DNA of 64,000 bases from Diphasiastrum complanatum (lineage: Eukaryota > Streptophyta > Lycopodiopsida > Lycopodiales > Lycopodiaceae): NCBI GenBank assembly GCA_029204225.1, contig MU832642.1, positions 1 to 64,000 of the forward strand, read 5' to 3'. Made by a program: the position numbers and the translations under genes. Below, piece by piece: positions 549 through 29,900 of this stretch. How positions within the stretch are numbered: position 1 is the stretch's first letter; each line of letters begins with the position of its first letter. Below the pieces are notes generated by a model. It did no database searches and had not been told where the DNA came from. It worked only from the letters and a program-made list of their open reading frames with translations.

Positions 549-610
<62 letters not shown>
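1..610 (+). mobile_element. 3' end of an L1-like LINE with (TC)n tail
   Basis: This is the 3' untranslated end of a LINE lying in the same direction as the host gene. The part at about 100-245 resembles, by eye, the 3'UTR of the minus-strand LINE relic near 44400-44520. At 515-542 lies the conserved tail hairpin (inner stem ATGCC/GACAT with one mismatch, outer stem GTCT/AGAC), followed by ATTAAATAAAAA and a (TC)n run at 554-610. No ORF2 coding remains in the window. The left end is cut by the window edge. Confidence 0.7.
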
Positions 611-2160: not shown

Positions 2161-5100
2161 GTGAGGTTTCTCCCTAGCTTTGTCCTTTTACATGGTTTGC
2201 TTTTGAAGTTTGGCTACCTCATTCTTGCTATGCCCTTGTTTAGCCCTCATATACTTGCTCATATGTGTTTCGAATTGGGGTTTGTAGTGTTTGATGTAGA
2301 TATTGGAGATGGCGAGCCTACAAGAAAACTACCGTATAACAACGGCCGTAAGTGCAAACTTTGATGTTGCTAGTTTCAATAGCGGTTCTCAAGCCTTTTT
2401 ATTTATTGGAATTGATTGGCGGAGGCTAACTTTTAGACTAAGGTTGAGTTAGTACGATGCGGTTTTATTGTAAGGTGAAGAAACAATCACATGGTGTTGA
2501 AAATTTAAAACTTCAAGGTTTCCTACAATTCATAGTACCTTAATTTTTAATTGGCTTTTAGTAGTAGGTCTCTTTGTCGTTTGGTTTTTCATCTTACTAT
2601 AGCATTTGTAGGCCCGAGTATGTTCTCTTGTACCATTCTACTTTTGTTGGTTGAGTAAAACATGCACGATGGTTTGAATCATACAATTTGCCTCATCATT
2701 TCAACACCTTATGGAATCAATGGGCAATCTTTTTGGAAAACACATTGCTTTCATGTAGGCTGGGTCATCCATTAGAGTTTCTCTCTTGTATGAAAATCTC
2801 ATCAAGGCAATCAAGAGAGATCTTTCAACTAGTTTTGATATGAAAGATTTAGCGCTTGTGCACTATTGCCTTGGAGTAGAGATTTGGCAAAAGAAGGGTG
2901 GTGTTGCACACACCCAAACCAAGTACGTGTAACGTGACTAAAATGCTTGAACGCTTTAGGATGAGTGATAGTAAACCATTCTCTACACCAATCGAAGTTG
3001 TTAAGAAGCTGTCAAGTGAGGATAAAAGTTAGCTACTGGATGCATCGTTGTTTTGTCAACTAGTTGGATTTTTGATTTACCCCTCTACTACACATTGGAA
3101 AGCTGCGAACATATAGCTAGCTAAGAATCCTGTATTTCATGCACGCACTTAGCACATCTTTAATAGAGGAAAAGCTTCTATCTAGAGAAATTGATATGAT
3201 ACATTGCAGGATTGAAGACTAGCCAGCTGATGTCTTTACAAAAGCTTTAAGTCATGATAAATTTGAGTTGTTAAGGGAAAAACTCAAATGTATGTGAAAT
3301 AAACTAGCGCTTTAAGGGAGAGTCTTAGGATAAGAAGCCCTGTTTATATTCAGCTAATCCTTTTTTGTTCTAGATAGTAATCTTTTAACTTTTAGTACAT
3401 GCTACATTGACAAGGGCCATGTTGACGACACTCGAGTTTAGTGAGTTGGGACGGTTGTCCCATAACGGGGACTGTTTTGCCATGCAACGGTACCCCCCAA
3501 AAATAGTGCTTATATATATAGTTGCCTCTCTTCAATTATCTAATATACAGTTCCTATTTGTTTGCTTGGGGAGTGGCATGCTATTTCCTTCAATTTTTTG
3601 TGATTCAGATTGATAGATAGCTTGTCAGATTCATAGTTAAAATTGCAAGATTGATCTTTTACATAGATTTATTTCAAGTTTTGTTTTGGGTTTAGTTTTG
3701 GGCAAGCTCAAATCGAAAAGCTTAGTCCACTCACATAATATGTGCATGCAATATTTTTCACCTTAGCTTATTTTGGGTTGAAATTGGGTCCACTGTGCCT
3801 TGTGATGCTGAGTTGCCACCATATCCAAAGTTCTTCCTATTTTTATTTGGTGCAATATTTCATGTGGGCCCTAGCACAATAGAAGGTAATGTCAAGTTCA
3901 TTTCTTGTTTACTACAACTATCTAGTGATGATGCTTCTTTGAAACATGTGGGTCTTGTATATAATTATTCATGCACTCCTGTTACTTCTATTCAATCATC
4001 CATTTGTGCACCAAGAAAACTTTGGAATTGGGTTTTTACTAAATAGGGAAAAATTAAGGAGTTTGTAATTGGACACTTGCAATTGAGGTGTTTAAGCTCT
4101 TTTTCGGCTTGGGGTCTTTTAAAAATGAATCTTGACCCCAAAACATCATGTGAATAATTTTTGCTTTAACTTAGGTCACCTAAGTCAAGTAATGGAGGTG
4201 CCAAACTATATGAACAATGTAGCTTCTTAATAGGTTGCAAAAGCACTAGAACGACCTTAACCTATGAGATTGCCTTTCTAGACCATTCCGTGAGAAGAGA
4301 CCTAGAACCTTCCATGCTTGGTTTTAGAAGGCTTTAAATAGCCTCCACATACTTAGTATTGTAATGAGGGGTCAGAAGCTTTTTTATAATAGAACATAGT
4401 GGCTAATTTTTTTGTTGGAAGTCTTGTAAAGCAGTTTATTGTCAGTTGTAAGACAATCTTCATGGGAGAGTTATTACATCTTGATTGTTTCCAACTGTAT
4501 TATGCCATTATCTTTTAAATTTATCTTCCGACACACAGTGAGTTGGTGTGTCATGCTTGAGTTTGGCTTGCCCAACGCTGGTTCAATTCTTTGTGATCCT
4601 ACAGGTTGAAATACCAAGAGCATTATTTTGAGATTTCTTCTTAACTAAAATAGTAAATGTTGATGCACAAACTTGGTTTTGAAAGTGCTTGAAGTCTAAT
4701 TTTAATCAATGGTCTCAGAAGAACCTGTAGACAATATTAAATTGACATTGTTGTTGTTACTGTATCTTCTTGATGGTTGTATTAGCAAGGTGACTCACCT
4801 AGAACTTGATGTATATATTGGTACATATGTTTAGTGCATAAGATGTACGCCAAATACAGGCCTCTACATGTGGCAACTTCCTACTCACATGTCGGCCCCC
4901 GTTTTTTTAATGGCAGAGAATCCATATGATGTTGCGGATCGTTGGCTGTTGAATGAAAATCTTCCTTTAGTTTACAGGCAACAAGTTGTCGATTTCATCA
5001 CGCAAAATACAGGGCAAAGATTACCACAACTTGACAGCACATTTGTTGATCCATATACTGGTGGTACGCTGATGTAGCTATAATTTGTATATATGTTATT

Positions 5101-6010
5101 TACTATTGTATTCTTGAACCTAATCTTGACAAAGGCATTGGCTTATGAAGCAAAATTTTGCATTCTTTATGGGTAGAGTCCTTATGATCCAATAGCTTTG
5201 TCGAGTTGAATGTATGGTGATTTTATCCCTGTTCAAATCAATTAAGCTTTTGATGAAATCTTCAAAAGAATGTTTCAAAAAAGTTTCTTCTTCATGGAGT
5301 TGTAGCTCAGAACCTCTTTTCATGCTTATCATTATTGATTGCTAACCCTCTTGAATAAGCAATAAATCCTAGCTTTATTATCATAAATGGCCATCAAGAA
5401 TTGGGAATTGTAATATCGTCTAGACAACTTAAATTTTAGATGCCTAGTTCTAACAATAAAATCAAAACTTAATTGTCACTCGAATGTTAATCAAAACAAA
5501 GTTTCTTCGACTTTAGAAGCTTTATTTCCTTGGTGCAGATAAGCATGAAAGAAATGCTATTTGGTTGTCAAAATAAAGCGGTAATTTCAAGGTACCATTT
5601 AACTTCAAGTATGATGGTTTCTGAGATACTTTACGATCAACAATAAGTGGATAGATTTTTTGAGCTATTAATTGGGGCGTCATTAATTGTATTGGACATC
5701 TGATGCAGAAAGTGAAAGTGAATGATCAGGGTTTAGGGACTCCTTGGAAGGAATTGTAGGGATGGAAACTCAACTCTTTTAAGAAAACCCTTGTTAAGGC
5801 CATGCGTTACTTTAGGGACACACATTTAAGGGCACTTAGCAATTGGGTGCACTATTTCCTTCCAAAAGTGCAACCTCCCTTGTTATTCAAATTATGCATT
5901 AAGGTTCGTTAACATAGAGATTAAGGACATTCATTTGACAAATTTTGATTATTGAGATACTTTGTGGGAGAAATAATAACTATTTTGCTTGTAGGGCTTT
6001 TTCTATGACT

Positions 6011-6101
<91 letters not shown>

Positions 6102-9100
6102 AGAATTAGAATTATTATTATTAACGTCTTTTGGTGCCCAGGGGCACATAAGACAAAAGAGAGTACAAAATGTGAGAAGCATTGTCCGCATAAGGACTTA
6201 TTTACCAATGAAAAGACAGTAAAACTAAAACTAAAATATCGATCTCTCTGTCTCTAAGAGAAAAAGTATCCAAGCTTGACCACCAGCTGGTGAGGGTACA
6301 AAGCAAGAGCTTAACCACCTGCTCCGCGGAGGAAACTAGCTACGAGCAAGCTGAAAGTAATGAGTGATGGTAGTAGTGGGTCGTGATGTAGGCTGGTGGG
6401 AGGCGTATGAAGATCTAGTAGCACTGGATCGAGCCGAAACTCTCTGTGTCTTCGATCTTCGGACGGGGACGTCAAAATCCGCAACCGAAATATCCACTCT
6501 GTCTCGCTTCTGGAAGAACTGAGTAATGTGAGCCTGACTGGAATCCATATCTGAGAGCGTAGGTAGAAGTGAAGCTCGTAAAATATACATCTCTCTCAAA
6601 AGAAGACCCACACATCTAGCATCTGGATACTCGAGGAAGGAGCTCAACGTGAGGGGAATATCTCGGTATAAACAATGGTATCGTCCTCTAATCTCATAGT
6701 ATACTGGGCAGCGAAAGATGAAATGAAACTCATCTTCCACCTCCTGAAGAGAACAAAGCTGACATATCCGCTGCAATCTGGGAGTGTCTGTGTATCTACC
6801 TGTCTCGATAGCAAGCTGATGAGAAGAGACTCGAAGCTGTCCTATACGATATCTCAGACCAAAAGATAGCGTCTGTGTAAGATAAACTGGAAGAATAGGC
6901 AAGCCCGAAACGTCCAGCCGTAAAAGATGTGTGCCATAATAATGTAGCTTGACCCTATCTGGATCAGGATGTGACCATATAGTGCGTATGTAGCTCCGGT
7001 AAATCTGCTGTCTGATATAAGGATGGGTTCCATTCGGAAGATCAAGTGCGGATAAACCCCAAGTCTGAAGAAGGGCTGAGACACTGCGATACCAAGAGTG
7101 CTTGGCTCCCTGATCTGCAAGGGTACAAGATGAAGTGAGAGCAGCAACAATGTATCTGGAGGTATCTAGATCTGATACCCTGTGAAGAAAGGTGATGATC
7201 TGAAACATAGCACCAACAACTAATGGAGGAGAAGCAAACTCGGCTAGTATGATATCATGTGGTACTGAGGGCTTAGCCCGAATTATCCTACTGAGCATGA
7301 GAATCTGGATACGAGTAAGATCTCTCCATGTATCGCGTGATAAATCAGGGCACCAAGTCTCAGCCGAATATAGCACAACTGGGGAGACAGTAGCAGAAAA
7401 TAGTAGGCATCTGGTAGCAGGATCCTGCACATAATAAGTAGAGCAAAATCTCTCCATATGCACAAGAGCGGTATGCCCCTTGCGGAGCCTGGCGGTGGCT
7501 GCTGGTCGAAAAGTGAGTAGCGGACCAGAGAAAAGAACTCCCAAATAGGTGTAGGAGGTCACGATCTCAATCGGTAGCCCGTCATAATAGAAAATCACAT
7601 CTCTCATATGCTGTCTGTTGGTGTTAAACACCATAATCTTAGTCTTCTTAAGGTTAACCGTCAATCCCCAACGCTGGCAAAAGTGATGTAAAGCAGAAAG
7701 GTGACTCTGTAAACCAGCTGCAGAGGATGAGAGGAGAACCACATCATCAGCGTACAAGAGAATGGGGATAATAATGTCTGCTAGGGGACAGCCCTCTCCA
7801 CCTTCCTCGCGAATAATCCGCTCGAGGTCATCTATATATAGTGCAAAAAGAGTGGGTGATAAGGGGCAACCCTGCTTCACCCCAATGGTAGAATGTATCT
7901 GTGAGGACCAGCCACTACCATCTCTGAAACGTGCCAAGACTCGCTCATATAAAGTAATGATCGCAGCAATAGTATCCTCTGAAAAGCCAAGTGAAGACAG
8001 TCTCTGGAAAAGAAGATGTCGTGGAACAGAGTCAAAAGCTTTGCGAAAATCCACAAAGCAACAGTAAATTCTCTGTTTCCGATGTCGAGCCTCCTCAATA
8101 ATGCATCTCAAAATGAAGATCTGGTCTGAAGTAGAATATCCCGGTCTGAAACCAGCTTGACCCATAGCGTGTAAACCCTCAGTTTCAGCAAAAGATCCAG
8201 TGACTGTCTGTAGTATAGAGCCATATATCTTAGCTAGAGTGTGGCCAATCATAATGGTGCGGTAGTTTCCTACATTCATGGGATCACCTGCCTTGAGGAT
8301 GGGGTGAAGGATATTAGTACACCAAGCCGTAGGAAAACCAGAAGTAACAGCTGTGTTAAAAACATGAGCAATGTAAGGGGAGATGAGATGTGCTACGGGC
8401 TTTAGGAAGTCTACACTTAAGGAGTCATAGTCAGTGGCTTTATTTAGTTTGGCATGTTTAATGGCGTTTTCAACCATGTCAGGGGTGAAAAGTGAGCAGT
8501 GGTCAGGTCTCGGTGAGAGTGAGGTAGGAGGAGAGTCCGTGGTATATAAATCCGTGGCATACTCGATCCAGGATTCGATGGCTATGGGGGCCAATGTTGA
8601 AGAGTGTCTGGTGAAATGTTTCCAGAAAAAAGAGGAGGAGGGTGAATCTAAAGAGTTGATCATTTTTTGGCAGAGTGATTGTAGGTACTTGATCTTCTTT
8701 GTTCTGGTGGTTCTATGATATTCTTTCTGGCATTGTTTGAGTGTGGCAGGGGAGTGTGACCTGGCATATGTCACATGATTGTGAAGAGAGCGGCATTCTG
8801 CATCATACCATCTGTTGTGAACACTTCTGTGAGATGATGTCGTTTTGGTGGGGAAGGATGAGGAAGCAGCAGCTAAGAGGGATGTAGAGAGAAAAGTGGC
8901 TTGCTGGTCAATTGGTGCCATGAACGGGAAGTTAGCGAGTAGTTGGGATAAGATTGTGGTGTAATTAGTGAATCCAGATTGGGTGAAAGGAATACGTTTA
9001 TGAGTGGGAAGAGAGCAAGAAATTTGCAAAGAAGAGGTTATGTGACCAAGTGAGATGTGTAAGAGTGAGTGATCGGAAATGGTAGGGGGTGTGATGGAGA

Positions 9101-10935
9101 AATCAGAAATGTGAGAGATCAAAGCAGGTGATCCAATGAAGTAGTCGACCACACTATGTCCTCCACCATGAGGATAGCATGTATATGCTGATGAGGAAGG
9201 CCACTGTGTGAGGCCATTCAAAATGGCAAGAGCGTGTGTCTCTGCTAGAGTGATCAACTGCTCCCCGAAAGATGTAGCTGGAGTGTCTGCATCCTGTGAT
9301 ACCCGGTCTAGCCCCATATCCAAAGGGTAAAGCCTGAGAAGATCCGTAGCTGCATGAAATTCGGTTTGTCTAGAGCTTGTGCGGGCGTTGAAATCACCTG
9401 CTAGTAAAATGGAACCCTGCTGAGAAAAGATAGCAATATCATCTGAGAGAGCCTGAAAAGGGTCCCCGCCAAACTCAGCAAACACTGAGGTCTGTGGAGC
9501 AAAATAGCATACAGCTATATAGATGTCCTGAGGTAATCCCAATAGTGAGCCAATAATGTGTAACCAAATATAGCGAGCGTATGGATCTTGTTTAACCATC
9601 TGAACTGTGGTGTCTCTGTATAAACAAGCTACTCCTCCAGATCCTCGACAAGTTTTTCCCCTAACAAATGGACGAAAAGCAGAATGCCAAGAGTACTCCT
9701 GTATATTTGGAAGAGGATGATATAAGGACTCATGAGTTTCAGCCAACAACAAAATGTCGCATTTTCTAATAAAATCAGCAAAGTCTCCGGCTGATGACGA
9801 AGATAAAAAACCATTACAATTCCAGAAGCCAAGTCTCAAATTGGTAGGGGATCTCGGGTAGCTTCTATATCCGGGGGCCCCTAGTTCCTATTGTGGAAGG
9901 TCGAAAAATCTCGGTTTCCCGTCAATAAAAACAACCCTTTGCCCTTTCTCTTTCGCTTCAAGGATAATCTTTTTTCTTGCCAACCATTGAGTATTTGTTA
10001 AGTCATCATCCATATAAATGAAAGTACCTTTAAGCTTTGCCCTAAGCCGAAGGGCAGCATTGCGTTGTGAAAGCGAGCGGAACTTGATAAACAAAACATT
10101 GTCATCAAATTTACTGCGCCAAGCAGTATCAAAACCGTCAGCCACATGAGATAACTTGGAAATGAGCAAATCCGTAGCTTCTTCCAACGGTTTTCCACCA
10201 TTGGCAATGCCTCTTACTCTAATGTTAAAGGCTTTTTTGGCCCTTCTGGCTTGTTCACCCAAAACTGTCTCCAAATCGTTTTCCTTCGGAAAAGATGAAA
10301 TCTGAGAGTGATTACCTTGCTTAAGGATCGATGTCGTTTCTTCAACCTGTTTTGCGAGTGATGAGAGTTTGCTGCCCATATCATCCGGTTTGAAGAGTGC
10401 TGCCCACGTTTTCGTCTCCTCGACTTGTTTCTCCAAGCTATTGATCTTGTTGGAAGTCTCCTCCAAGGCACTTTTTTCTGCAATTCGTTGCTTAAGATAT
10501 ATATTTTCTTGCTCAAGCTGCTCCACACGTTCCGTGACACCAAAAAGATCCTTAGCTAACTTGCTATTTTCAGCTTCAAAGAGGTGTAGTTGTTTCTTAA
10601 GTCCAAGAATTTCTTGCCGGATAAAACTAAGATCATAAGCAAAAAGACTTTCGGTAGGTTTGGAAGGAGTGTAGTCAATGGCAGCCATGTTGATAGTTTC
10701 TGTCACCGAAGACGGCTCCTCCATCACTACCGGTGATGGGGGGGTGTCCAACAGGGAGGGGGGTGTAAGAACACCCTCCTTTTTCTTAGGTGCCATAGGA
10801 GGCGGTAAGCAGATGGAGGAGAGAGAGAGAGAGAGATCGCGCGATGAGAGGGAAGGGAGGCAGATTTGGCCACGGGAGCAAGGGGCGAGGCAGGAGGGAG
10901 AGCGGGGGTAAAGGAAACAAGAGTGAGGGTAGAGG

Positions 10936-11009
<74 letters not shown>

Positions 11010-14000
11010 GGAGCTTAAAGCTCAATCATCTATAAAACTAAATAACTGCAAATACAATGCAAAAAGACAGCTGGCCCAGTCAGGATCCAATAGCCTAGAA
11101 TCATATATCACGATGCCCATCAGCATGAAAGAAATGGTGGATGGTATGCTGTGAAGGTGTGATTAGATGTGCCCTGGACCTGTCGCCGGATAGGCCGTCG
11201 ATGTCGTCTCTGCTGCCGTGGCGCTTTGGGCTGTGATCTAATAACTGACTGTCTCTCTAGCCGTCGACATGGTCTCTGATGCCGGTGTACGAAGGAGTCG
11301 GGAATCTCGGCCTCTCCATCTGAGTCGCTGCCTATGGGTACCTCGGATCTCTGTCTCCGACGGGATATGCACTCATCAATGCTCAGCTGTGTCAGGGATT
11401 GTGTACCATCTAGTCTCCTCCTCCTCAGGTCTGACATCTCTCGGATCATCAGTGCGACACATCTAGGGTCCTCATAAGATATCAAGGTAGAAAGTGTAAC
11501 TGGGTGCTCTCTGAACAAGCAGTAGTACTGCCCCCGTATCTCATAGTAGGCTGGACATCTGAAGAGGAAATGTGACTCATCCTTAGTCTCATGCATAACA
11601 CACATGCTACAAAGCCGGTCCTCTCGTGGGGTGCCACTGTATCTGCCAGTCTCAATAGCCAGCTGATGTGAAGAAACCCGAAACTGACCCATCGCTATCC
11701 GCAGACTTTGTGATATACTCCTCAACAAGTAACCAGATACTATGGGGCAGCCAGCCGGATCAAGAGATAGAAAGTGTGTACGATAAAACTCACTCTTGGT
11801 CCCCAATGGACCCTGCCAAGTGATATGAAGATATGATCTGTAAAGGAGGCCTCTGATGTACTGGTGGGTGCCCGCAGGTAGATCATTGATCTGGATACCC
11901 AATGTGGAGAGGAGACGACAAGCCTGGGAGTACCATGAGAAAAGGTGTCCCTCTGAGTGTAGGCGCCGGGATGAAGATAAAGCTGCAACTACATAATGTG
12001 TACCCCCGTCCTGAAGATCCTCTAACCTCTGTATGAATGTCACAATATGGAATAAGGCCTCAATCTGAATGGGGGGGACCGCGAACTCCACCAAGATAAT
12101 CTGGTGTGGTACTGAGGGCTTAGCCCGTATCATCCGGGAGAGCAAACGAATCTGGAGCCAGGAGATATATGTCCAATCAGTAGCTGTCAGACCAGTACTC
12201 CATGTCTCGGAAGCATACATAGCTGAGGGCACAACCATAGTGTCAAAGAGCCGACACTTACTAGTCGCATCTCTGATGTGTGAGCTGAAACATAGTCTCT
12301 CCAAATCTACCAATGAGGCATAGCCCTTCCGTACCTGGGAAATAGTTGCGTGTCTCATGCTGGACGTAGGCCACGAGAATAGTACTCCTAGATATTTATA
12401 GGAATCAACAACCTCTAGGGGATGACCATCCCATAGAAGCTCCTGCCGCATCATGAAAGACCTAGAGGTGTTGAACACCATAACCTTAGTCTTGGCCACA
12501 TTCACCGACAAACCCCACCGTGTGCAGAAAGAAAGAAGAGCATCTAAGTGTCGCTGCAAACCCTCTCTCGTCCGTGAAAGCAAAACCACATCATCAGCAT
12601 AAAGGAGAATAGCAATAATGAGGTCGCCCAATGTGCAACCCTCCCCTCCATCACTCCGTATAACATGCTCTAGCTCATCAATGTAAAGACCAAAAAGTGT
12701 AGGAGAGAGTGGACATCCCTGTTTGACACCAATAGTACTGACCACCTCCGGTGAAATAACTCCTGATAGTCGGACCCTGCCAATAACTCGCCTGTACAAT
12801 GCTACTACCGCCTGTATAGTATCCTCCTGAAAGCCCCGATCATGAAGTCTCTGTATCAATAGATGCCTAGGCACATAATCAAATGCCTTGCGGAAATCCA
12901 CAAAGCAGCAGTATACACACTCCCTCTTGGCCTTAGCCTCCTCAATGATGGACCTCAAAGTAAAGATATGATCCGATGTAGTATATCCCGGTCTGAAACC
13001 CGCCTGTCCAATGGCATGGAGTGATCTAGCATCCATCTCTGTACTGATTTCTGACTGTAGGATAGAACCATATACTTTGGCGCAGAGGTGACTGATCATA
13101 ATGGTGCGGTAGTTGTCAGCTTTCATGGGGTCCCCGCCTTTGTGGATAGGGTGAATGAGGTTTGTGGACCATGGAGAGGGAAAATCAGAGGTGACAGCTC
13201 GGTTGAATAGGATGGAGAGAAAGGGTGAGAGGATGTCGGGAGCATACTTTAGAAGTTCAGCCTCTAGTTCATCAATGTCTTTGGCTTTATGGGAATGGAG
13301 TCGTGTGATGGCCTTTTCTATAAGTTCGTTAGTGAATATGGCAGAAGTATCCGTGAGACAAGAGGTGGGAAGAGGAGGGGTATCTGGGATGGTGTAGAAT
13401 GATGTGGCATATGCGACCCAAGTGCTGAGGTCTGTGATCCGTGGTGGGGGTGACCGTGGAAGGAACCTCTTCCAGAATGAACCTGAGGAAGAACTAAAGA
13501 GGAGATCCATCAGTTTCTTACCCTGACCAATCTCGTATGTGATTTTCTTTTTTTTTGTGGTTCTGCGGTAGACACGAGATATGGTTTTGGTCATATGAGG
13601 AAGATGGGAGCGAGCATATATGAGGTTCTGATGTAGCTGGATGCATTCTTGATCATACCAGGGGTTATAGGGTCTATGACGTTGCTGGTCTTTGGGCCGT
13701 GGGGATGGAAAGGCAATGGAAGCTGCAGTATGGATGGTCTGGACAAGAAAGAGGGACTGCTCCTCTAAAGTATGCTCATGTGGGAAATAGGTAAGGAGAT
13801 CGGAGAGGGCTTCTCTGTATAGTGGTGTGTGATGTGAAGTGTAGCGGTAGGTGGGTTTAGCTGTAGGGGTCGAAGAGAAAATAGGTGTGATGTGGAGATG
13901 ACCGACAGAGAGTGAGAGATATGAATGATCAGAAAGAGTGGTGCGGTGTACAGAGAAGGATGAAATGAAGTGAAGGAGAAATGGTGAACCCATGCAATAG

Positions 14001-15194
14001 TCGACGACTCTCTAAAGTCTCCTGCTGTAGCTGAAGAATGGATACCATTGCAGTTCCATAAACTTAACTGCAATGCTTTTGTGAGGGCCCAGATCACCCT
14101 TTTTCCCAGTGCTTTGGCTTCGCTGAAAACCTTCCTCCTTTCGGCAACTTGCATAGGTGTGAGATCGTCGTCCATGAAGACAAGGGTACCTCTCAGCCTA
14201 AGGACAACTTGCCGCTCCTCTATTCCCGTGAACCGTATAAGTGTAGTTGGATCTCTTTTAGTTCTCCACGCTTTTTCCATTCCGTTGTGATGGTGGGAAA
14301 GTGTATCCATGAGGAAACTGGATGCTTCGGTAATTGGAGCCTTAGTATCTTCAATTCCTCGCACCCGCACATTTAGAGATTTATACTTCCGCATTTCTTC
14401 TTCGGATATGGTGGCTGAGATGACGCTATTGAAAGTGTGTGTACCTTCTTTACCGTCTTCTTTGAATAGAGAGGCCCATGTTTTGGTTTCCGCCTTATGT
14501 TGCTCAATCCGTTCCTCCAATTCTTGGATGTTTGTGGTGCTGGCTGGTTCTTCTTTTCTGCTCAAGGTCTCTTCCAAAGATATGATCCGGGCCATCATAG
14601 TTTGCTTCTCGATTGCCATAGCTTGTATTGTGGTTTTCAATTGACCCATTTCCATCCTTAGGTAGCTAGATTCCAGTGTAATTTGTTCCATGCAAGAGAG
14701 AAGGTACTGTTCAAATGCTTTCGTAGGAGAGTAGGCTTCTTTAGGGAATGAGAGATGATAATGGGAGGGGGCAGGAGAACCATGGAGAAAGGAGAGGGCC
14801 AAGGAAGAGGGGGGAGGGCTGTGAGCAGGCAGCGAGGGGTTGGGAAGGGCCAGCAAGGGGGTGGGAGGGGCGGGAGTAGGCTGAGCAGACAGCGAGGGGG
14901 TGGGAAGGGCCAGCAAGGGGGTGGGAGGGGTGGGAGTAGGCTGAGCAGGCAACGAGGGGGTGGGAGAGGTGGTGGGAGAGGGAGTAGGCAGCAAGGGGGT
15001 GTGTGAAGGGCCAGCGACAGGCTGCAAAGGAGAGGGAGGGGGTAGCGAAGGAGAGGGAGGGGAGCGAGGGGGAGGGGAGCGAAGGCTCCCCTTTTTTATG
15101 GCCATGGAGACCCGCTGAGTGCGATGGAGGTCAGATGGGAGGTGAGTGCGACCAGGGTAGGGCGAGCTAGGCCAGGACAACAGCCATCACCATC

Positions 15195-15277
<83 letters not shown>

Positions 15278-17364
15278 ATAGAATATATTAATGTCTATAG
15301 AGTGCCCTTGGGCACAAAAGACAAAGAAAAAGTACATCAGAACGGAGCATTGTCCATGCCGGACTTATTTCTATCAGCTAAAACTAAAAGCAGAAATTAA
15401 CTGGAAATAAAAACCAAAGCTTAATCTCCAGACATGGTGAGGGTACAAAAAGCAGTAGGATAACCACCAACTACGTGGAGGAATAAAACTCACTAACTGA
15501 GAGAGAAGAACTGTGTGATGGTGTGAGGCACATGGTGGCCTCTGGTGACGAACTCTGGATGGTCGAGGAAGACGCTGGAGCTTTGGTCGACTAGTTGGAA
15601 TGTCAAACTCACTATCCGAAGTATCCTCTCTAGCTCTTTTTTGAAAGAAAAGTGTAATATGTGGCTGGCTGCAGTCAACATCCTGATCATCCGACAGAAG
15701 TGAAGATCTCAAAGAGAACATCTCTCGCAAAAGTAAACCAACACATCTCGCATCTGGATAGATAAAGAAGGAACCAAGCGTGAGTGGAGTGTCCCGATAC
15801 AGACAGTGGTATTTGCCTCTGATCTCATAATAAGCTGGACATATGAAAATAAAGTGAAACTCATCCTCAACCTCCTGTAGAGTACAACACTGACAGATCC
15901 GTAATGGTCGTGGCGTGTCTGTGTATCTGCCGGTCTCAACAGTGAGTTGATGAGAAGAGACCCGAAGCTGACCAATGCGGTAGCGCAGGCCAAAAGACAG
16001 CGTCTGAGAGAGAGAACTCGATCTAACGGGAAGCCCTGAAGCATCCAGGTGAAGAAAGTGAATGCGGTAGAACTGAAGCTTAACTCGTGATGGATCTAGG
16101 TGAGACCAAACAAAATGTATGTATGCTCTATAGATTTGTCGGCGAATGAACGCATGAGTCCCATTTGGGAGGTCAGACATAGATAATCCCCATCCATGTA
16201 GAAAGTCCGAAGCATACTGAAACCATGAAGACTTAGCCCGTTGCCCGGCCAAAGTGCGAGAAGATGTAAAAGCTGCTACCACGTATCTGGAAGAATCAAG
16301 CTCTGAGACTCTGTGAATGAACGTGATGATCCTGAAAATAGCCTCTACAATCAGTGGAGACGCAAACTCCGCCAAAATAATCTCATGAGGAACGGACTGC
16401 TTGGCCCGAATCATCCGGCTAAGCATGTGAATCTGCAAACGTGAGATGTCACTCCAAGTGTTAGATAAGCCTGGGCACCATGTCTCCGCTGAATACAGTG
16501 CAACTGGAGAAACAGTCAGTCGAAGAAAAGAGGCGACAATGTGTGTCCGCGTCATGCACGTAATAAGTGGAGGAAAACCTCTCCATCTGAACAAGAGCAG
16601 AGCGCCCCTTGCGGAGCCTAGCCAATGCAGCTGGTCTAAAAGAAAGCAATGGACTAGAGAAGAGAACACCCAGGTATGTGTAAGACGCCACTATCTCTAG
16701 AGGCTGTCCATCAAAATAGAACATAGTCTCTCATATGCTGCCTGTTGGTGTTAAACACCATAACCTTAGTCTTACCAATGTTCACCATCAGCCCCCATAT
16801 CTTACAGAAAGTATACAAGGCATCCAGATGTCGCTGAAGTCCAGCAGCCGAACTAGAGAGTAGAACCACATCATCTGCATAAAGAAGGATAGGGATAATA
16901 AAATCTGCTAGAGGACAGCCATCTCCACCTTCTTCCCGAATGATCCGCTCAAGGTCGTCAATGTATAGAGCAAATACGGTGGGTGATAAAGGACCTGCTT
17001 TACTCCGACCGTACTATGAATATATGAAGACCATCCATCTCCAAAACTCTCTCATATAATGTGATGATAGCAGCAATGATCTCCTGTGAGAAACCAAGGG
17101 ATGCCAAACGCTGAAGCAGCAGGTGTCTCGGAACCGAATCAAATGCTTTGCGGAAGTCCACAAAGCAGCAATAGACTCTTTGTTTCCTGAACTTCGCCGC
17201 CTCAATGATACATCTCAGTATGAATATCTGGTCCACTGTGGAATAGCCTGCTCTAAAACCTGCCTGTCCCATAGCATATAACTCCTCTGTCTCCGCATGA
17301 GAGCTGATGATAGATTGCATAATCGAACCATAGAGCTTAGCCATAGTGTGGCTGATCATAATAG

Positions 17365-17446
<82 letters not shown>

Positions 17447-20400
17447 AGTTTTATTAATGTCTTTTCCATGCCAAAAGGCATATAAGACAAATAAGTACAT
17501 TTCAAGTATGTGGACCACAAGGGAGCATATGAAAAACGTCTCTGAGACTGAAAGAAAAGCATATAAAAAAGATCTAAATACAATTACTAGTGTTAACTAA
17601 ACTAAAAAGGTATAAAGCAAGAAATAGCTATGTATAATGGGAGCAAGCCGCAGATCATGCCCTAGAGGTGATAATGATACTGTTGCTACTGCTGCTGCTG
17701 CTACTGAAGAAAGATGTAATACAGGAGTGAAACTGAGATCCGCTGTCGTCGTCGAATGTAGGAAGGATGTCTTCTCGTGGTAGGACAAATAGGTTTGACT
17801 GCAGGGTAATGCTGGGATCTTACCTATTCAATCACAAAGCATTCTCAAAAGAAAGAGAGAGATGGCTAGAAACCCTCTTGTAGAAACTCGTGGACAGCCA
17901 AGGAGAATAGCGAGTATTGCTTACAAAAGTGTCTCATACAAATGGGATGCACACATATATATAGTCCAAGATGACTATCTAACTTCATGACTATTGGCTA
18001 TCCAACTACTTGACTATTGGCTATCCAACTACTTGACTATTGGCTATCCAACTACTTGACTATTGACTATCCAACTTTCTATAAGTTACATAGAAAGAAT
18101 AAGGTACCTCCAATATGTCAAGTTGAGGTACTTAATGTCACAATTAGGCCTAGTGGACCCATGAGTCCCTACCAAGTTAATTTCATACTAACTTAGCTAA
18201 CTCTAAGTTTAGTAGGCCTAATATAATAAATGACCATGGTTACACAACTCTCGACCTTTTGGGTCAAAGTAACCTATGGTAATGTAAGCAATTCCATTTA
18301 CATTCCAACACCCTCCTTAAATGGAAATGCATAACATAACATGAAGTAACTTCTCGAAAGAGAAAAATGCAACTTGCTGTCCGAACTTCATGTCGCCAAA
18401 TAAACTTCGCACCGAAGTAGTCGAAACCTCATCCCCAATCATATCCAACATATAAAGGGAAAAGAATGCGTAATAATGAAGCATCAAGTCGAAGGGTAAG
18501 GATTTGCATGCTCCATCCGAAGTAGGGAACCAACATAAACTCGACAATAAGTTGAAACATGAACTTGTAATCCATTATAGGCTCCCACATCATTCGAAAA
18601 AACTTCTTACCATAAGGACAATAAAAAAGAGTACCAAACTCTTTTGACATCACATCCTCCCAAACCTTACCATCAATGACTTGCTCACATAGAATAGGCA
18701 ATGTACCATCATCATGATGAAGAGTAAGTGTAGAACCAAAAACATCAGCAAGAGGTACTGATTTTAAAGAGGCATGTGCCTTCCCTTTGTAGTAAGACAT
18801 TTCTTTGTTGTCCTGCAAAGTCTCCAATAGCGGACAAGGAACTGTTATGGGCTGTTCAACACTTTGCTGACCAAAGTGTCCCCAACATGGACCATGTTGT
18901 CCATAATCTTCCGCAGGCTGTTCCTGAAGCATAATGGACTGCTCATGATGTAAAATGGGCTGTAAATGACCAAAAGAACATGACCGAACCTGCTGTCCAA
19001 CGTCTTCATCATAAAAATTTGGCAAACTATCAAGAGATGCATCAACGATGGCGTCATCAAAGCTGTCTCTCGAAGAGGCATGGGATGACATAGAAAATTC
19101 TTCAAGTAATGAAAAATTTTCTTCAAACAAATGCTCGCTCTTAACACTTTGAACAAAAGTACTAATTGACACATGTCGACTCTCTCCTCGATTAGTACAA
19201 AAAGGTTCCAAAGAGTGCTCGAATTTTTTAGCCTTTGCTAAAACATCAAATTGAAAATGATCCACTTTGTTGTCCTGCAAAGTCTGCAACAACCATTTAG
19301 GGACTGGTTTGGGCTGTCCAACAGCCTTGCCTTTGTCAACACTTTGCTGTTCAAAGTGTTCCGAACTTGGACCTTGCTGTCCAATGTCTTCAATAGGCTG
19401 CTCTTCACCATAAATAGGTTCTTCTTGATGAACTATGGGCTGCAAAATTGAAGAAGTAGTGGGCTGTCCACTAGAAGTTGATGGCAGTTCCTTATCTTCA
19501 TGATTAGATGGCAAAACCAAATCTGGAAATATTTCAAGATATGCATCATGGGGGAAGTCTCCTTTCATGACATGAGTGGGCACAACATCATAGGAGGTCT
19601 TTTCATCAAAATGAACATCACGACTCACTATGATTTTATTAGTATCCATATTAAACAACCTATAGCCTTTGCTTTCGCTACTATAGCCAACAAATATGCA
19701 TTTGACTCCTTTATCATCAAGCTTGGTTCTTAGCTTATCGGGAATGATAGCATAAGCCATGCAACCAAATATGCGTAAGTGAGAAACAGTAGGCTTCTTA
19801 CCATACCAAACTTCATAAGGAGTTAATGCCTTAAAGGCTTTAGTAGGACACCGATTACTAATGTAAGCCGCCGTTATAACCGCTTCAGCCCAAAACTTGT
19901 GAGGTAGGCCTTGAGCATGCATCGAGCCATCTCCATGATAGTGCGATTCTTTCTTTCGGCAACACCATTTTGTTGAGGTGTGTAATGGGTTGTCATTTGA
20001 TGATGGATACCTTTTCTTTGAAGATAAGTAGCGAATGTACTCTTTATAGGTTCCCCTCCTCGGTCGGTACGTAAGATCTTCAAAGAGTGCCCAAACTGGT
20101 TTTCTATCATTGCTAGAAAATCCTTAAAGCGTTGAAAAATTTCAGATTTTGTCTTCATAGGATAAATCTATGTAAATCTTGAAAGGTCATCAATAAAAGT
20201 GACAAAGTACTTACATCTTCCAATGGATTTGGTCCTCATTGGACCACATACATTGCCCTCAACTCGAATAGTTCCATCAATTTGAAAAGCTTGCCTTTGA
20301 AATTTTCCAAGTATGCATCCTTCGCATACATGTCCTTCGGGATGCTCAATATTAGGAATGTCTTCAACTATATTGAATCTCTTCAACATCTTCAAGCTAG

Positions 20401-23400
20401 CAAAGTTGAGATGTCCAAACCTAGCATGCCATAATTCAGCCAACTCCCAAGAATGTGAACTTGATGCAACATGAAGCTCTTCGCTCATAGGTATCCATAA
20501 GGAACAATCCACCACGTAATGTTCCCGAAGTAATGATCATAAGAGATCTCTTTGGGTCTTTGATAAGACATTTGTCTTCTTTGAATTCTACAACCAATCC
20601 TTGGTTCATAATTGTCGACATCGAAATGAGATTCTTTTTTGTTTTTGGAACATAAAGTACATTACGAATGTACTTCTCCTCATCATTGGGTAAGATAATG
20701 GGGATCACTCCAATACCTTTGATAGGACAAGAGGTGTTATGAACACCTTGAACTTTGCTTCCATCATGCACTTTTACAAGCTTTGTGAAGACTTCTTTGT
20801 CATAAGTCATATGGCGTGTGGCACCGCTATCAATCACCCAATCAATAGATGAAAAAACAGCAACTTGTAAAGCTGAAGATGAGCTGTTTTCTGCTGAAAA
20901 ACCAGCAAGATTTGATGTGGCAGAAATCTCGTCTTGAGGAGAGATGAGATTATTAGTGACAAAGGCATAATCATTATTGAAAAGATTATCCTCCTTTCCA
21001 AATTGTTGTTCCAAAGTAATGATTGCGGTACTTGTATCGTTACCTTTCTCTTTTTCCTTTGCAAGCCTCTTCCTACATTCTTTGATGTGATGCCCAATCT
21101 TCTTGCAATAGTGGCACTTACCCTTCTTCTTGGAGCCTTGATCTTGATCTTCCTTAGATTTTTGATCATCTTTGGAAGTTTTGAAAGAAGGCTTCCCTTT
21201 CATCAGCATCTTGATGATTTTCTGCAACCAAAAAGGGAATAAGATAGCTTCCTATTGGCGCCCTCCTGCAAGCAATATGATCACCTAAAGACTCTGATAC
21301 CATGTAGGAAATAGAAGCCTATTCAATCACACAAAGCATTCTCAAAAGAAAGAGAGAGATTGCTAGAAACCAAGGAGAATAATCAGTATTGCTTACAAAA
21401 GTGTCTCATACAAATGGGATGCACACATATATATAGTCCAAGATGATTATCTAACTTCATGACTATTGGCTATCCAACTACTTGACTATTGGCTATCCAA
21501 CTACTTGACTATTGACTATCCAACTTTCTATAAGTTGCATAGAAAGAATAAGGTACGTCCAATATGTCAAGTTGGGGTACTTGATGTCACAATTAGGCCT
21601 AGTGGACCCATGAGTCCCTACCAAGTTAATTTCATACTAACTTAGCTAACTCTAAGTTTAGTAGGCCTAATATAATAAATGACCATGGTTACACAACTCT
21701 CGACCTTTTGGGTCAAAGTAACCTATGGTAATGTAAGCAATTCCATTTACATTCCAACACACCCAACTGACCATGCCAGGCTCGATCGAGGTAAGCTCTA
21801 TAGATGAATCGTCGGATGTAATCATGGGTACCAGAAGGAAGTGCATGGATAGAGATACCGAGTGTGCCAAGAAGTTTGAAGGCCTGAGAGAACCAAGCCA
21901 AATGGTAGCCTTGACTGTGAAGGTTCTGGGATGAAATGAGAGCAGCCCGAATATATCTCTGCTCAGAAGACTGGAATGCACTGACGCGCTGTATATATGT
22001 GATGACCTGGAGTACGGCATCAAGGTACATAGGCGGGACCGCAAACTCAACAAGGATGATCTGGTGTGGAACTGAAGGCTTAGCCCGAATCATGCGTGAG
22101 AGCATAGTGATCTGTAATCGCGAGATACTGGCCCAGTCAGATGAAGTAAGACCAGTGCACCATACAACTGATGCATATAAGGCTATAGGAGAAACAATGG
22201 TGTCAAAAAGCCGACACTTACTCGTGGCATCTCGAGTAGACTTACGGAAGCAAAATCTCTCCATCTGGGTAAGGGAGGCATGGCCTTTCCCAAGCCTACT
22301 AGAAGCTGCCTGTCTCTTACTAAATATAGCACCAGTAAAAAGTGTATTGGGATGTTTTCGGAGTGACAAAGGTATCTCAGAGCAGATCAGGAGCACTATT
22401 GGGGTGAAGCAGGGGTGTTCCCTCTCTCCCACACTTTTTGGATTATATATTGATGAGTTGGAGAGGGTTATTGAGCAGTGTGGCGGATCTGGTTGCAGAC
22501 TCGGAGACATCTTGATCGCTATTCTTCTTTATGCAGATGATGTGGTTCTACTTTCACTTACTAGAGAGGGGTTAAAGAGAGATTGATTGTCTTCATGGTT
22601 TCTGTTCCAAATGGGGCCTAGGGGTGAATGTTGCGAAGACCAAGGTGATGGTCATCAACACTAAAGTGCCATCACTAGTAAGACTGTGTCATCAGAGAAA
22701 CCAAGGTCTCGTATCCGCTGAATGAGTAAGGAGCGTGGGACAGAGTCGAAGGCTTTCCTGAAGTCCACGAAGCAACAATAAACTCACTCTCGCCGGTGCC
22801 GAGCTTCCTCAATAATGGCTATGAGAATAAAGATATGATCATTAGTAGAATAATGGGCTCTAAATTCAGCCTGGCCCATAGCATGCAATCTCCTGGTCTC
22901 TGCCTCAGTACTCACAACTGATTGAAGAATAATGCCGTACAACTTCGTGATAACGTGCCCAATCATAAGAGTCCAATAGTTACTAGGATTCATGGGATTG
23001 GGGTGGATGATGTTGGTGCACCAACAAGAAGGAAAACCGGAGACAACGGCTTGATTGAGTAGAGTGGCTAGGAGAGGTGATAGTAAATCAGTAGCATCGA
23101 TTAGAAGCTTGGATTCAAGGTCATCAATATCCCTGGCTTTACTGGTATTCAGTTTCTTGATGGCGTTGTGGACCATATCAATAGTGACGAAGGTAAACTC
23201 AGAAGGTCTAGGGGAGATGGAAATAGGTGTGTCAGTATCAATGGTATATATGGTAGTGGCATAATCAATCCAAATGCGCAAATCATCAAGGAGCGGAGGT
23301 GGAGCACGGGGAATGAACTTACGCCAGAATGCGCCTGTGGAAGAACTATAGCGGGGTAAGTGAATGCTGATAGGTGCGAGTGAGTAGTCAAAAAAGTATT

Positions 23401-24094
23401 TGGGTGCACGAGGCAATGGTGGGGGTGAGAACTGTCGAGGCAAAGAAATAGTACCAAGGGCTAAAGAAAAGGAAGGAATGATCAGAGAGAGTGGTAGGAG
23501 AGATACGAAAATCATGGATGAGTGAGATGGATGATGGTGATCCCATAAGGTAATCAACAACACTATGACCGCCACTGTGGGGATGGCAGGTGTATTTGCC
23601 AGAGTTAGGCCAGCAAGTTAAACCATTAAAAATGGCCAACTCATGAGCTTCTCCTAATTGCAATAAGTATTCGCCATAGGTGGTAATGGGGCCCAAAATG
23701 TCCTCAGAAATCCTAGTAACACACAAGTCATCTCCATCAAGGGCACGTACCCGAAGCTGGTCCATAGAATCATAAAAATCTGTTTGCCGTGAAGCTGTCC
23801 TGGCATTAAAGTCACCGGTGAGAAAGATTTAACCTCGCTCTGCATATCTGATAATATTTGTAGAAAGATCAATGTAGGGTGAACCAATACCCTCCACAAA
23901 GGAAGAAGATACTAGAGGGAAATAACAAGCTACAACAAAGATGTCTCTGTCAGAACCAACGCTATGCGCATCAATGCGGAACCAAATGTACTGTGAGTGT
24001 TCATCATGACTGATGAACTCAAAAATAGGATGCAGTGACTCCCTATATACGCAAGTGACCCCACTAGAACCCATCCCACTAGCAGATCTCACCT

Positions 24095-24163
<69 letters not shown>

Positions 24164-26951
24164 AGAATTAGAATTAGAATTATTATTATTAACGTCTTTT
24201 GGTGCCCAGGGGCACATAAGACAAAAGAGAGTACAAAATGTGAGAAGCATTGTCCGCATAAGGACTTATTTACCAATGAAAAGACAGTAAAACTAAAACT
24301 AAAATATCGATCTCTCTGTCTCTAAGAGAAAAAGTATCCAAGCTTGACCACCAGCTGGTGAGGGTACAAAGCAAGAGCTTAACCACCTGCTCCGCGGAGG
24401 AAACTAGCTACGAGCAAGCTGAAAGTAATGAGTGATGGTAGTAGTGGGTCGTGATGTAGGCTGGTGGGAGGCGTATGAAGATCTAGTAGCACTGGATCGA
24501 GCCGAAACTCTCTGTGTCTTCGATCTTCGGACGGGGACGTCAAAATCCGCAACCGAAATATCCACTCTGTCTCGCTTCTGGAAGAACTGAGTAATGTGAG
24601 CCTGACTGGAATCCATATCTGAGAGCGTAGGTAGAAGTGAAGCTCGTAAAATATACATCTCTCTCAAAAGAAGACCCACACATCTAGCATCTGGATACTC
24701 GAGGAAGGAGCTCAACGTGAGGGGAATATCTCGGTATAAACAATGGTATCGTCCTCTAATCTCATAGTATACTGGGCAGCGAAAGATGAAATGAAACTCA
24801 TCTTCCACCTCCTGAAGAGAACAAAGCTGACATATCCGCTGCAATCTGGGAGTGTCTGTGTATCTACCTGTCTCGATAGCAAGCTGATGAGAAGAGACTC
24901 GAAGCTGTCCTATACGATATCTCAGACCAAAGGATAGCGTCTGTGTAAGATAAACTGGAAGAATAGGCAAGCCCGAAACGTCCAGCCGTAAAAGATGTGT
25001 GCCATAATAATGTAGCTTGACCCTATCTGGATCAGGATGTGACCATATAGTGCGTATGTAGCTCCGGTAAATCTGCTGTCTGATATAAGCATGGGTTCCA
25101 TTCGGAAGATCAAGTGCGGATAAACCCCAAGTCTGAAGAAGGGTTGAGACACTGCGATACCAAGAGTGCTTGGCTCCCTGATCTGCAAGGGTACAAGATG
25201 AAGTGAGAGCAGCAACAATGTATCTGGAGGTATCTAGATCTGATACCCTGTGAAGAAAGGTGATGATCTGAAACATAGCACCAACAACTAATGGAGGAGA
25301 AGCAAACTCGGTTAGTATGATATCATGTGGTACTGAGGGCTTAGCCCGAATTATCCTACTGAGCATGAGAATCTGGATACGAGTAAGATCTCTCCATGTA
25401 TCGCGTGATAAATCAGGGCACCAAGTCTCAGCCGAATATAGCACAACTGGGGAGACATTAGCAGAAAATAGTAGGCATCTGGTAGCAGGATCCTGCACAT
25501 AATAAGTAGAGCAAAATCTCTCCATATGCACAAGAGCGGTATGCCCCTTGCGGAGCCTGGCGGTGGCTGCTGGTCGAAAAGTGAGTAGCGGACCAGAGAA
25601 AAGAACTCCCAAATAGGTGTAGGAGGTCACGATCTCAATCGGTAGCCCGTCATAATAGAAAATCACATCTCTCATATGCTGTCTGTTGGTGTTAAACACC
25701 ATAATCTTAGTCTTCTTAAGGTTAACCGTCAATCCCCAACGCTGGCAAAAGTGATGTAAAGCAGAAAGGTGACTCTGTAAACCAGCTGCAGAGGATGAGA
25801 GGAGAACCACATCATCAGCGTACAAGAGAATGGGGATAATAATGTCTGCTAGGGGACAGCCCTCTCCACCTTCCTCGCGAATAATCCGCTCGAGGTCATC
25901 TATATATAGTGCAAAAAGAGTGGGTGATAAGGGGCAACCCTGCTTCACCCCAATGGTAGAATGTATCTGTGAGGACCAGCCACTACCATCTCTGAAACGT
26001 GCCAAGACTCGCTCATATAAAGTAATGATCGCAGCAATAGTATCCTCTGAAAAGCCAAGTGAAGACAGTCTCTGGAAAAGAAGATGTCGTGGAACAGAGT
26101 CAAAAGCTTTTTGAAAATCCACAAAGCAACAGTAAATTCTCTGTTTCCGATGTCGAGCCTCCTCAATAATGCATCTCAAAATGAAGATCTGGTCTGAAGT
26201 AGAATATCCCGGTCTGAAACCAGCTTGACCCATAGCGTGTAAACCCTCAGTTTCAGCAAAAGATCCAGTGACTGTCTGTAGTATAGAGCCATATATCTTA
26301 GCTAGAGTGTGGCCAATCATAATGGTGCGGTAGTTTCCTACATTCATGGGATCACCTGCCTTGAGGATGGGGTGAAGGATATTAGTACACCAAGCCGTAG
26401 GAAAACCAGAAGTAACAGCTGTGTTAAAAACATGAGCAATGTAAGGGGAGATGAGATGTGCTACGGGCTTTAGGAAGTCTACACTTAAGGAGTCATAGTC
26501 AGTGGCTTTATTTAGTTTGGCATGTTTAATGGCGTTTTCAACCATGTCAGGGGTGAAAAGTGAGCAGTGGTCAGGTCTCGGTGAGAGTGAGGTAGGAGGA
26601 GAGTCCGTGGTATATAACTCCGTGGCATACTCGATCCAGGATTCGATGGCTATGGGGGCCAATGTTGAAGAGTGTCTGGTGAAATGTTTCCAGAAAAAAG
26701 AGGAGGAGGGTGAATCTAAAGAGTTGATCATTTTTTGGCAGAGTGATTGTAGGTACTTGATCTTCTTTGTTCTGGTGGTTCTATGATATTCTTTCTGGCA
26801 TTGTTTGAGTGTGGCAGGGGAGTGTGACCTGGCATATGTCACATGATTGTGAAGAGAGCGGCATTCTGCATCATACCATCTGTTGTGAACACTTCTGTGA
26901 GATGATGTCGTTTTGGTGGGGAAGGATGAGGAAGCAGCAGCTAAGAGGGAT

Positions 26952-26992
<41 letters not shown>

Positions 26993-29900
26993 TATTAATA
27001 TCTTTTGGGTACCCTGAGGTACATAAGACTCAAAAAAGTACATGTCAAGTGTGATTAAAGGGTAACATTAACTTTTCTTCAAAGTATTTGCATGGTTCTT
27101 AATGTTCAATTGATGTAGACTAAAGTTTCAGATGGGAAAGTTTTATCGTCCTAGGATAAGAGATCAAATCTGAATCTATATATGAAAATTTAAGTTACAT
27201 GACTCCACATACTCCACACTCTACGAATTTGGAACTTTGAAGTATGTCTTTGGGAAGTCACTTTTCAAGGTCAAAAGCAATATATAACTAACAAAAATAG
27301 AATCTATTTTCTGGCTAGTGGCGTGTTGCATATTTTTTCAACATGGTTATGTGTGTGCATGCATGTACATGTGTGAGTGCGCATGTGTAGGCCTGCAAAG
27401 AGCTTACTTTGGTATCATGTCGTATTCTTTTCATGTTGTAACTCTAAGAGGATTGAAAAAGTACAATTTATCATCCTTCTAGGTTTATAAGAGATCCATA
27501 TTCTTCTTAAATGTTGGAACGCATCATTTGAAATAGACATATGTCCTGCGTTCTACTTGTTACAAAGTCTTTACATTTTGGTACAACTCTAGTGCTACAC
27601 CTCTTTCAGATTTATAGATTTCCATTATCTGGTTTTGAATGCTGATTTTCATGGTCAAATTTGTGATACAAATTAACATTTCTTGATTTTGCACTTGGTT
27701 TTTGCAGCAAATGCATATGTGCCTCGTCAACAACAGTCACAAAAGCCTAGTAAGTGTGCAAACTTCTATAAGAGATGATGGTTTTCCTGGTCTTGACATA
27801 AAGAGTTTCTTAAACAAAACTAGTATTATATCATAATCCTTACCATAATTTGCATTTAAACGTGTTTGGACAAACATATCGCTATGTCATTCCCAAATGA
27901 GTCTGTTTTGTACTATGAAGCATAATACGGAGCAATAAAATATTAATCCATTTTTTTATGGACAAGACTGAAGCCAATCGTTTCTGCTACAAGAATTTGA
28001 GAGAAAAGGAGATTGGGGTGCTCTAACAACTATTCAATAGTGATGAATGGTGGAGCTAGCAACATAGACAAGGTGATTGTGAGCAGCAAATAAGTAATTT
28101 GGTGGTGGTAGAGAGAGAAACAAACACAAGTTTGTGGCAACTTCTAGTGTGGTTTTGTGTCATTTTTTTGTGACTACAAATTTCGTTTTCAATGACTTCT
28201 TTTGTTAACGTTCATTGTAGCAAAGCTAGGAAGTTCTTCATGCAAATTTTTTTGCATAGTTTTTATCCCGTGGATTGTTGTCATCAAATATAGCAAGGTG
28301 CTACATTAGATGCAATTGGAGGAGAGTAGGGTTTATGAATGCCTCCCTGCTTTATGCTAGTTGATTACCAAAGTTTTCGAAGCAGTTTAAGGTGTTTTCA
28401 TAGTACATATTTGTGCTTGCATTTTTGTAGTTTAGGGTTTAGGGTTTGCGCAATCAAATTTTTTTATATATATATTGTATTTCATCACTTCTTTCTTCAC
28501 CCATGGTAGGTGAGTGTGGAGGTGGCATGTGGGAGGAGGTTGTGTTGTTGGATCAAAATTAGGTCCCCATTGTGGATCAAGGTCCAAAAGATAGTGTTGC
28601 CTTTGTTGAAGCCACGATCACTTTAATGCTCGCATGAGGGTGAGGTCGCATCTTTTGGGCTTACGCAACCTAATGAAAGGAAACATGCTATTACTCTGTG
28701 CACATAATTTGTCAAGGACAAGCAAGCCATGCTTCTAGAGGCTTATGGTGAGATTAACATTCGTGCATCCTACATCTCTAGGTGCAACACCTATAGCGCT
28801 TTTGCTATGAACTTAATCATAGATGTTGGTATCAAATGAAGCATAAGATAGCAAAAAACGTTTGCATACGCAGACCTTCCATGAGAATCAAAATAAGCTA
28901 TTACAAGAAGTATATGTTGTATCGTGTGTAAATGGCTTAAAGCATCTTGTACTTATTTCAAAATAATCGTTGAAGGGGGAAATATTGGAAAAGTGTGATA
29001 GTGATTTCATTTGCAATGAGTCATCTGACATGTGCTTGAGTTGTTTATTCCTTGTAATGTCAAAGTCCCCAAGCCATATTGACATAACCGATTATAAGTT
29101 GATGAGTTATTGTTGTCGATAGTTCAGGGAGATTCTTAGAGTCCAACAGCTCTAATGTGACCCCAGATGGCATGTTACTAGAGGACTTGAGGCCAATGGT
29201 GATACTCCTTTTGTTTCAAGGCTAAGGTGTGAGGAGAGTGGTATCTAGCATAAACAACTTGTTTATGCAATGAGAAACACTCCGTGTCATACCATCTGTT
29301 GTGGGTGCGTAATGAGATGAGAAAGTTTTCGAAGGATATGTTGTATTGGCAAATTGTAAAAGAGATTGAGATAAGAAGGCTGCTTCGACGAGGTGAAGGG
29401 AAAGCCATGGAGAAAAGTGGTTAAGGATGAGGTGTAAGTGGGAAGACCTGACGGAGAGAAAGTTGGGCGAGGGCGATGGATGGGTCGGTGTGTCGTGACC
29501 GTGGTAATAGGATGTCCAAGGGATAGAAGCAGGAGGGAGTGATCAGAGATGGTAGGAGGTATAAAGTGGAAGGTATGAAGGAATGGGATCAAAGCCGGTG
29601 AACCAATGAAGTAGTCCACAACACTATGTCCTCCCCCATGTGGGTGACAGGTAAAATATGACGATGAAGGCCAACCAGGAAGGCCATTCAATATGGCTAA
29701 GGAATGGGCCTCTGCTAAGCCAAAATCAACTGCTCTCCAAAGTGAGTAGCCGGAGTATCTGCATCGTCCTGTCCAATCCCTTAGTTAAAAGCAAATCTTT
29801 TGCCTCCTGGATGGGCTTATCCCCGTCGGGAATCCCTCTAACTCGGATATTGAGGGCTTTTTTAGCTCTTCTTTCTTGCTCAGAAAAGACATTTTCTAAT

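Follow-up and report, generated by a model that had tools for sequence, protein, structure and literature searches.

A head-to-tail chain of L1-like LINEs joined at (TC)n runs in a Diphasiastrum complanatum contig

Layout of the chain and its members

The first 64,000 nucleotides (nt) of contig MU832642.1 of Diphasiastrum complanatum (GenBank assembly GCA_029204225.1; the window) contain a series of long interspersed nuclear elements (LINEs) that lie one behind another, joined at runs of the dinucleotide TC. Read on the minus strand and all in a single orientation, the chain consists of a LINE 3′ end, D, followed by LINE-1b, LINE-4, LINE-3, LINE-2 and LINE-1a, and represents at least three lineages. 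A first-pass annotation had proposed this tail-to-head order of six units, and the positions and flanks of the runs bore it out, together with the run coordinates to within a base; its extension of the chain to 5064 did not hold, the chain ending at about 6013.

The internal junctions are five uninterrupted (TC)n runs of 36-77 base pairs (bp) on the minus strand, located between D and LINE-1b (26954..26989), LINE-1b and LINE-4 (24099..24161), LINE-4 and LINE-3 (17367..17442), LINE-3 and LINE-2 (15197..15273), and LINE-2 and LINE-1a (10942..11003), and an 86-bp run (6013..6098, minus strand) closes the chain. Tandem Repeats Finder, used together with inspection of the flanks, reported all six as pure 2-bp runs with 100% match (that between LINE-1b and LINE-4 as 24099-24160) and added a seventh at 554-608, outside the chain. 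Five of the six chain runs separate the 3′ end of one LINE from the 5′ part of another, and the sixth separates the 3′ end of LINE-1a from non-LINE DNA. The claim that every member begins at a TC run held for all five later members (LINE-1b, LINE-4, LINE-3, LINE-2 and LINE-1a), which start directly at the run, but not for D, whose 5′ flank is not TC; thus, five of the six readable 5′ ends within the chain lie in TC. Because TC runs make up only 0.7% of the window, five starts out of five is far above the expectation for random positions, although this count comes from a locus chosen for its pattern. A scripted scan of the window for pure dinucleotide runs of at least 16 nt returned eight, all TC/GA, of which seven are LINE tails: six in the chain and one belonging to the plus-strand element E (554-608). 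The eighth (10819-10836) lies inside the 5′ region of LINE-1a. In total, seven elements carry (TC)n tails and one (element F, outside the chain) a decayed TC-rich tail; none has the poly(A) of catalogued flowering-plant L1 elements.

The two LINE-1 copies have open coding regions. LINE-1a (6099..10941, minus strand) has open reading frames (ORFs) for both ORF1 (9888-10796; 302 amino acids, aa) and ORF2 (6336-9839; 1167 aa), the latter with endonuclease and reverse transcriptase (RT) domains. The two ORFs share one frame, with a single TAG stop between them at 9839-9888, and ORF2 does not open with ATG (TTG in the ORF listing). LINE-1b (24162..26953, minus strand) is 5′-truncated, and the part of ORF2 that it holds, corresponding to aa 317-1167 of LINE-1a, is open, with no stops or frameshifts over 851 aligned codons. 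It differs from the last 2.8 kb of LINE-1a by 8 substitutions in 2794 nt (99.6% identity) and one 6-nt tail indel. Just before the TC run, LINE-1a (6099-6125) and LINE-1b (24162-24188) both carry TAA and TTCTAA units, and their difference by one 6-nt tail unit fits slippage of the RT.

The remaining members show varied lesions. LINE-4 is truncated and is split by a nested Copia long terminal repeat (LTR) retrotransposon (17823..21760, minus strand; LTRs at 21318-21760 and 17823-18311). Its 5′ piece (21761..24098, minus strand) has lost about aa 263-399 and carries an inverted stretch near 22326-22683; two in-frame stops were counted in the three parts of the element that were scored, which lie outside the inverted stretch and before the Copia insertion. 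Its 3′ piece (17443..17822, minus strand) retains a 3′ hairpin. LINE-3 (15274..17366, minus strand), which is about 69% identical to LINE-1 in DNA, is 5′-truncated, and its 612 aligned codons contain four frameshifts and no stop. Its 5′ start (17366) and that of an old unit elsewhere in the window, Y (44264), fall within about three ORF2 residues of each other (aa 529 and 532), which could be coincidence or mark a position at which the RT tends to stop. LINE-2 (11004..15196, minus strand) has an open ORF1 and an open RT ORF, the RT part being 50% identical to LINE-1a ORF2, but it jumps from about aa 22 to about aa 230 of ORF2, so that most of the endonuclease region is missing, and its 3′ end is unlike the others. 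Partial or near-complete loss of the endonuclease region was seen in three LINEs, namely LINE-2 (13990-14010), a fragment at 29199-29899 and old unit X (~47470-47594), with different breakpoints in each. Finally, D (26990..27053, minus strand) is no more than a LINE 3′ end of ~64 nt, hairpin included.

The 3′ hairpin and the affinity of the elements

Analysis of the 3′ ends revealed a shared structure upstream of the tail. Seven of them (LINE-1a, LINE-1b, LINE-3, LINE-4, D, E and F; LINE-2 is absent from this alignment) align as a hairpin, which in LINE-1a lies at 6126..6154 on the minus strand, with the tail about 10-35 nt further on; two of the three lineages have it ahead of their TC run. 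In the alignment 91.4% of cells are paired, compared to 31-56% when the partner is slid by 1-3 columns, and the covariation score was reached by 2 of 500 shuffles. Two pairs are changed on both sides, the compensatory pattern of stringent-type LINEs with a conserved 3′ hairpin, yet 63 of 500 shuffles reach that count, and further pair types (3, against a shuffle mean of 3.9) are no more numerous than in shuffles. When six 3′ ends were folded singly, those of LINE-1a, LINE-3 and LINE-4 were beaten or matched by only 0-3 of 200 shuffles, and for D, E and LINE-2 the number of matching shuffles was 15, 25 and 27 of 200, respectively.

Pairwise comparison of the 3′ ends showed a similar spread. LINE-1a and LINE-4 align only near the 3′ end, where 40 of 51 positions are identical (score 41 versus a shuffle maximum of 32). 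The pairs LINE-1a/D and LINE-3/D also exceeded their own shuffle maxima, LINE-3/LINE-4 only equalled its maximum (29 and 29), and LINE-1a/E, LINE-1a/F, LINE-3/E and LINE-3/F fell below theirs. For LINE-2, none of the seven pairings rose above the shuffle maximum, and its 3′ end has no block in common with the others.

Several features of LINE-1a point to the L1 clade. Pfam recognised Exo_endo_phos (2.5e-14) and RVT_1 (1.5e-33) domains in ORF2, that is, an apurinic/apyrimidinic-type endonuclease and an RT, in an element that lacks LTRs. A structure model of ORF1 had human LINE-1 ORF1p as its six best structural matches, five with E ≤ 0.001, but with TM-scores of 0.22-0.33 from a weak model built on two sequences (mean predicted local distance difference test score, pLDDT, of 61), and a sequence search with ORF1 in PDB returned no ORF1p. 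In sequence comparison, the RT scored slightly better against R2 chains (best 5.5e-24) than against human LINE-1 (1.4e-21). Given this slightly better R2 match, we call the elements L1-like and place them no closer. The predicted endonuclease structure (mean pLDDT 31) was unusable and was left out of the structure searches.

Pfam analysis of 19 of the 24 window ORFs of at least 150 aa found retroelement domains or nothing, and Rfam (at gathering scores) and ARAGORN found nothing over the window. The tail pattern had 0 matches in viral contigs, where ORF2 gave three stretches, none related; the ORF2 alignment gave 39 stretches in genome contigs, none related, and the single plasmid match to ORF2, from Alicyclobacillus, was 25% identical over 35%. 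The primer-binding site of the nested Copia element looks like that of land plants.

Serial insertion and its alternatives

Taken together, the chain is probably the product of an L1-like LINE with (TC)n as its insertion site, whose tails receive further copies, like Zepp of green algae but with (TC)n in place of poly(A). The LTRs of the Copia element nested in LINE-4 differ by 0.0207 per site over 441 columns, gaps excluded. (An LTR identity of 88% for this element, and the higher age derived from it, was dropped, as the difference came mostly from gaps, among them a repeat indel of 23 bp.) At plant substitution rates of 6.5e-9 and 1.3e-8, the Copia insertion would date to ~0.8-1.6 million years (My) ago and the LINE-1a/LINE-1b split to 0.11-0.22 My ago. 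Since LINE-4 predates the Copia element, and LINE-1b is only eight substitutions from LINE-1a and yet lies upstream of LINE-4, a single event for the whole chain is unlikely, and the members differ in age. The chain also shows the trait of Zepp-like chain builders, in which copies sit in the tails of earlier copies and many are 5′-truncated, as LINE-1b, LINE-3 and LINE-4 are here.

The 5′ end of LINE-1b suggests how such insertions might be completed. It falls directly after the position of an internal TCTCTCT in the full copy, LINE-1a, whose 4843 nt contain TC runs of 7 nt at just three places, and this fits microhomology joining to a TC target. We propose that the RNA of the element has a (UC)n end and is held by the RT through the 3′ hairpin, that a nick or some other event exposes the (GA)n strand at a (TC)n run, and that the exposed 3′-OH would pair with (UC)n and prime synthesis of complementary DNA (cDNA). 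The far end of the cDNA would then join inside the same TC run, in LINE-1b by way of the TCTCTCT match, and run length may be kept by slippage of the RT and later microsatellite mutation. Each insertion would close with a fresh (TC)n run, which would serve as the next target.

Other explanations account for parts of this pattern. In template jumping, an RT that has finished one RNA continues onto a second RNA at its (UC)n 3′ end, so that several elements enter in one insertion and no TC target is needed for each. This too would produce a tail-to-head row that includes truncated members, and D (~64 nt) followed by LINE-1b could be a template-jump pair. Jumping by LINE-type RT is known in vitro, although the authors of that work suggest that it may be unnecessary in vivo (PMC8857657). 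The members differ in their lesions, however, and the Copia element in LINE-4 is older than the LINE-1a/LINE-1b split, making template jumping a decidedly unlikely source of the chain. Also unlikely, if less so, is that the endonuclease does no targeting and that (TC)n tracts simply break or are nicked easily, with (UC)n-ended LINE RNA priming opportunistically from exposed (GA)n ends. LINE-2 lies in TC though it is without most of its endonuclease, which would agree with such priming but may equally reflect mobilization in trans or later loss, and endonuclease-independent insertion of LINEs at DNA ends is known from published work (PMC2881922). In contrast, LINE-1a retains a Pfam-recognised endonuclease domain; the chain would fit a preference in cutting as well as one in priming.

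Two further explanations invoke events other than insertion. An assembly error, in which contigs ending in TC were joined through false overlap, is very improbable: TC runs and a 2.8-kb near-identical pair are typical places for misjoins, but a false overlap would still require a real truncated LINE preceded by TC, and five different junctions of this kind are present. Unequal exchange or segmental duplication multiplying one LINE unit is scarcely credible. It would account for the near-identity of LINE-1a and LINE-1b over 2.8 kb, but the other members are ~69% identical or less in DNA and all five 5′ ends differ, and exchange between TC runs should not be able to give a truncated 5′ end a TC flank unless that element was already lodged in TC. 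The first-pass annotation had itself raised unequal exchange with identical junctions as the outcome that would speak against targeting; the junctions proved not to be identical.

Repeated insertion into the (TC)n tails of earlier copies is thus the best reading of this locus, and the interpretation offered in the first-pass annotation is partly supported. Several observations weigh against it. The evidence comes from one locus, chosen for its pattern. The 5′ flank of D is non-TC, and no target-site duplication longer than 6 nt was found around the chain among words shared by the 161 and 121 nt of flank. LINE-2 has neither the hairpin nor most of the endonuclease region, and no TC microhomology was found for LINE-3 and LINE-4 at the matching places of LINE-1a, which are diverged comparators. 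Gene conversion between LINE-1a and LINE-1b could mimic youth. An older head-to-tail stack in the window (41508-47710) has non-TC junctions and has lost its 3′ hairpin and tail. Finally, repeat tails need not imply repeat targets, as has been stated for Bov-B (PMC13295347).

A broader possibility, which we put forward tentatively and with somewhat less than even confidence, is that these elements belong to an L1-like superfamily of land plants with at least three old lineages, in which (TC)n replaces poly(A), (GA)n/(TC)n is a general target, chains are of mixed lineage, and one lineage without most of its endonuclease inserts by priming alone or in trans.

Relation to known elements and other features of the window

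Comparison with published elements showed that a mechanism of this kind has precedents. In green algae (Chlorella, Coccomyxa and Chlamydomonas), Zepp and Zepp-like L1 elements insert into copies already in place and build arrays in which 5′-truncated copies are abundant (PMC8226300, PMC3446292), as is also seen in the chain. Zepp, however, has an (A)n tail (PMC3747384, Table 3) and one cluster per chromosome, whereas here the tail is (TC)n and several lineages share one chain. The insertion site has parallels in other clades. Kibi, of the R1 clade, is a LINE that targets (TC)n. Togen, a fish LINE, targets the (TG)n microsatellite (PMC4640811), in agreement with the first-pass remark that microsatellite-targeting non-LTR elements are known in animals. 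Both resemble the chain elements in using a simple repeat as the insertion site but differ in that their target preference has been shown genome-wide, compared to one locus here.

Among plants, L1-CS LINEs of Cuscuta europaea provide an example of an L1 lineage that strongly prefers one target: of 97,860 scored elements, 91% lie near one satellite (PMC8091179). They insert, however, at two sites of the satellite monomer and not in a dinucleotide repeat or their own tail. The LINE1-1_ZM group of maize and sorghum has a stringent-type 3′ hairpin with compensatory changes (PMC3747384), similarly placed near the 3′ end, and differs from the chain elements in their (TC)n tail. According to Table 3 of the same paper, 224 of 233 flowering-plant L1 families end in (A)n, none in another repeat and 9 in no repeat, and 8 of 15 green-algal L1 families have another repeat, e.g. 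(CA)n (PMC3747384). Among the titles and abstract openings surveyed, none described a plant LINE tailed by (TC)n, and none brought together a TC tail, an L1-like element, a chain of several lineages and a host that is probably a land plant.

If insertion into (TC)n by the chain elements is correct, they would be LINEs in which one simple repeat serves both as 3′ tail and as target, making tail, primer pairing and site choice testable together, and they would add to plant L1 a dinucleotide tail that is found in none of the 233 flowering-plant families of that table (PMC3747384, Table 3). They would also show self-seeding of LINE clusters and the origin of long TC microsatellites from retrotransposon tails.

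Outside the chain, E (1..608, plus strand) is the 3′ part of a LINE-4-like element whose (TC)n tail at 554-608 carries no insertion, and F (39739..39990, minus strand) is an old LINE 3′ end. The decayed stack at 41508-47710 comprises at least three LINE-4-related pieces in the same orientation and could be either a worn-out chain or an internal duplication. The window also contains two more LTR pairs, at 31131-37682 (93.6% identical) and 51292-60919 (93.5%), the second of which encloses Gypsy-type domains.

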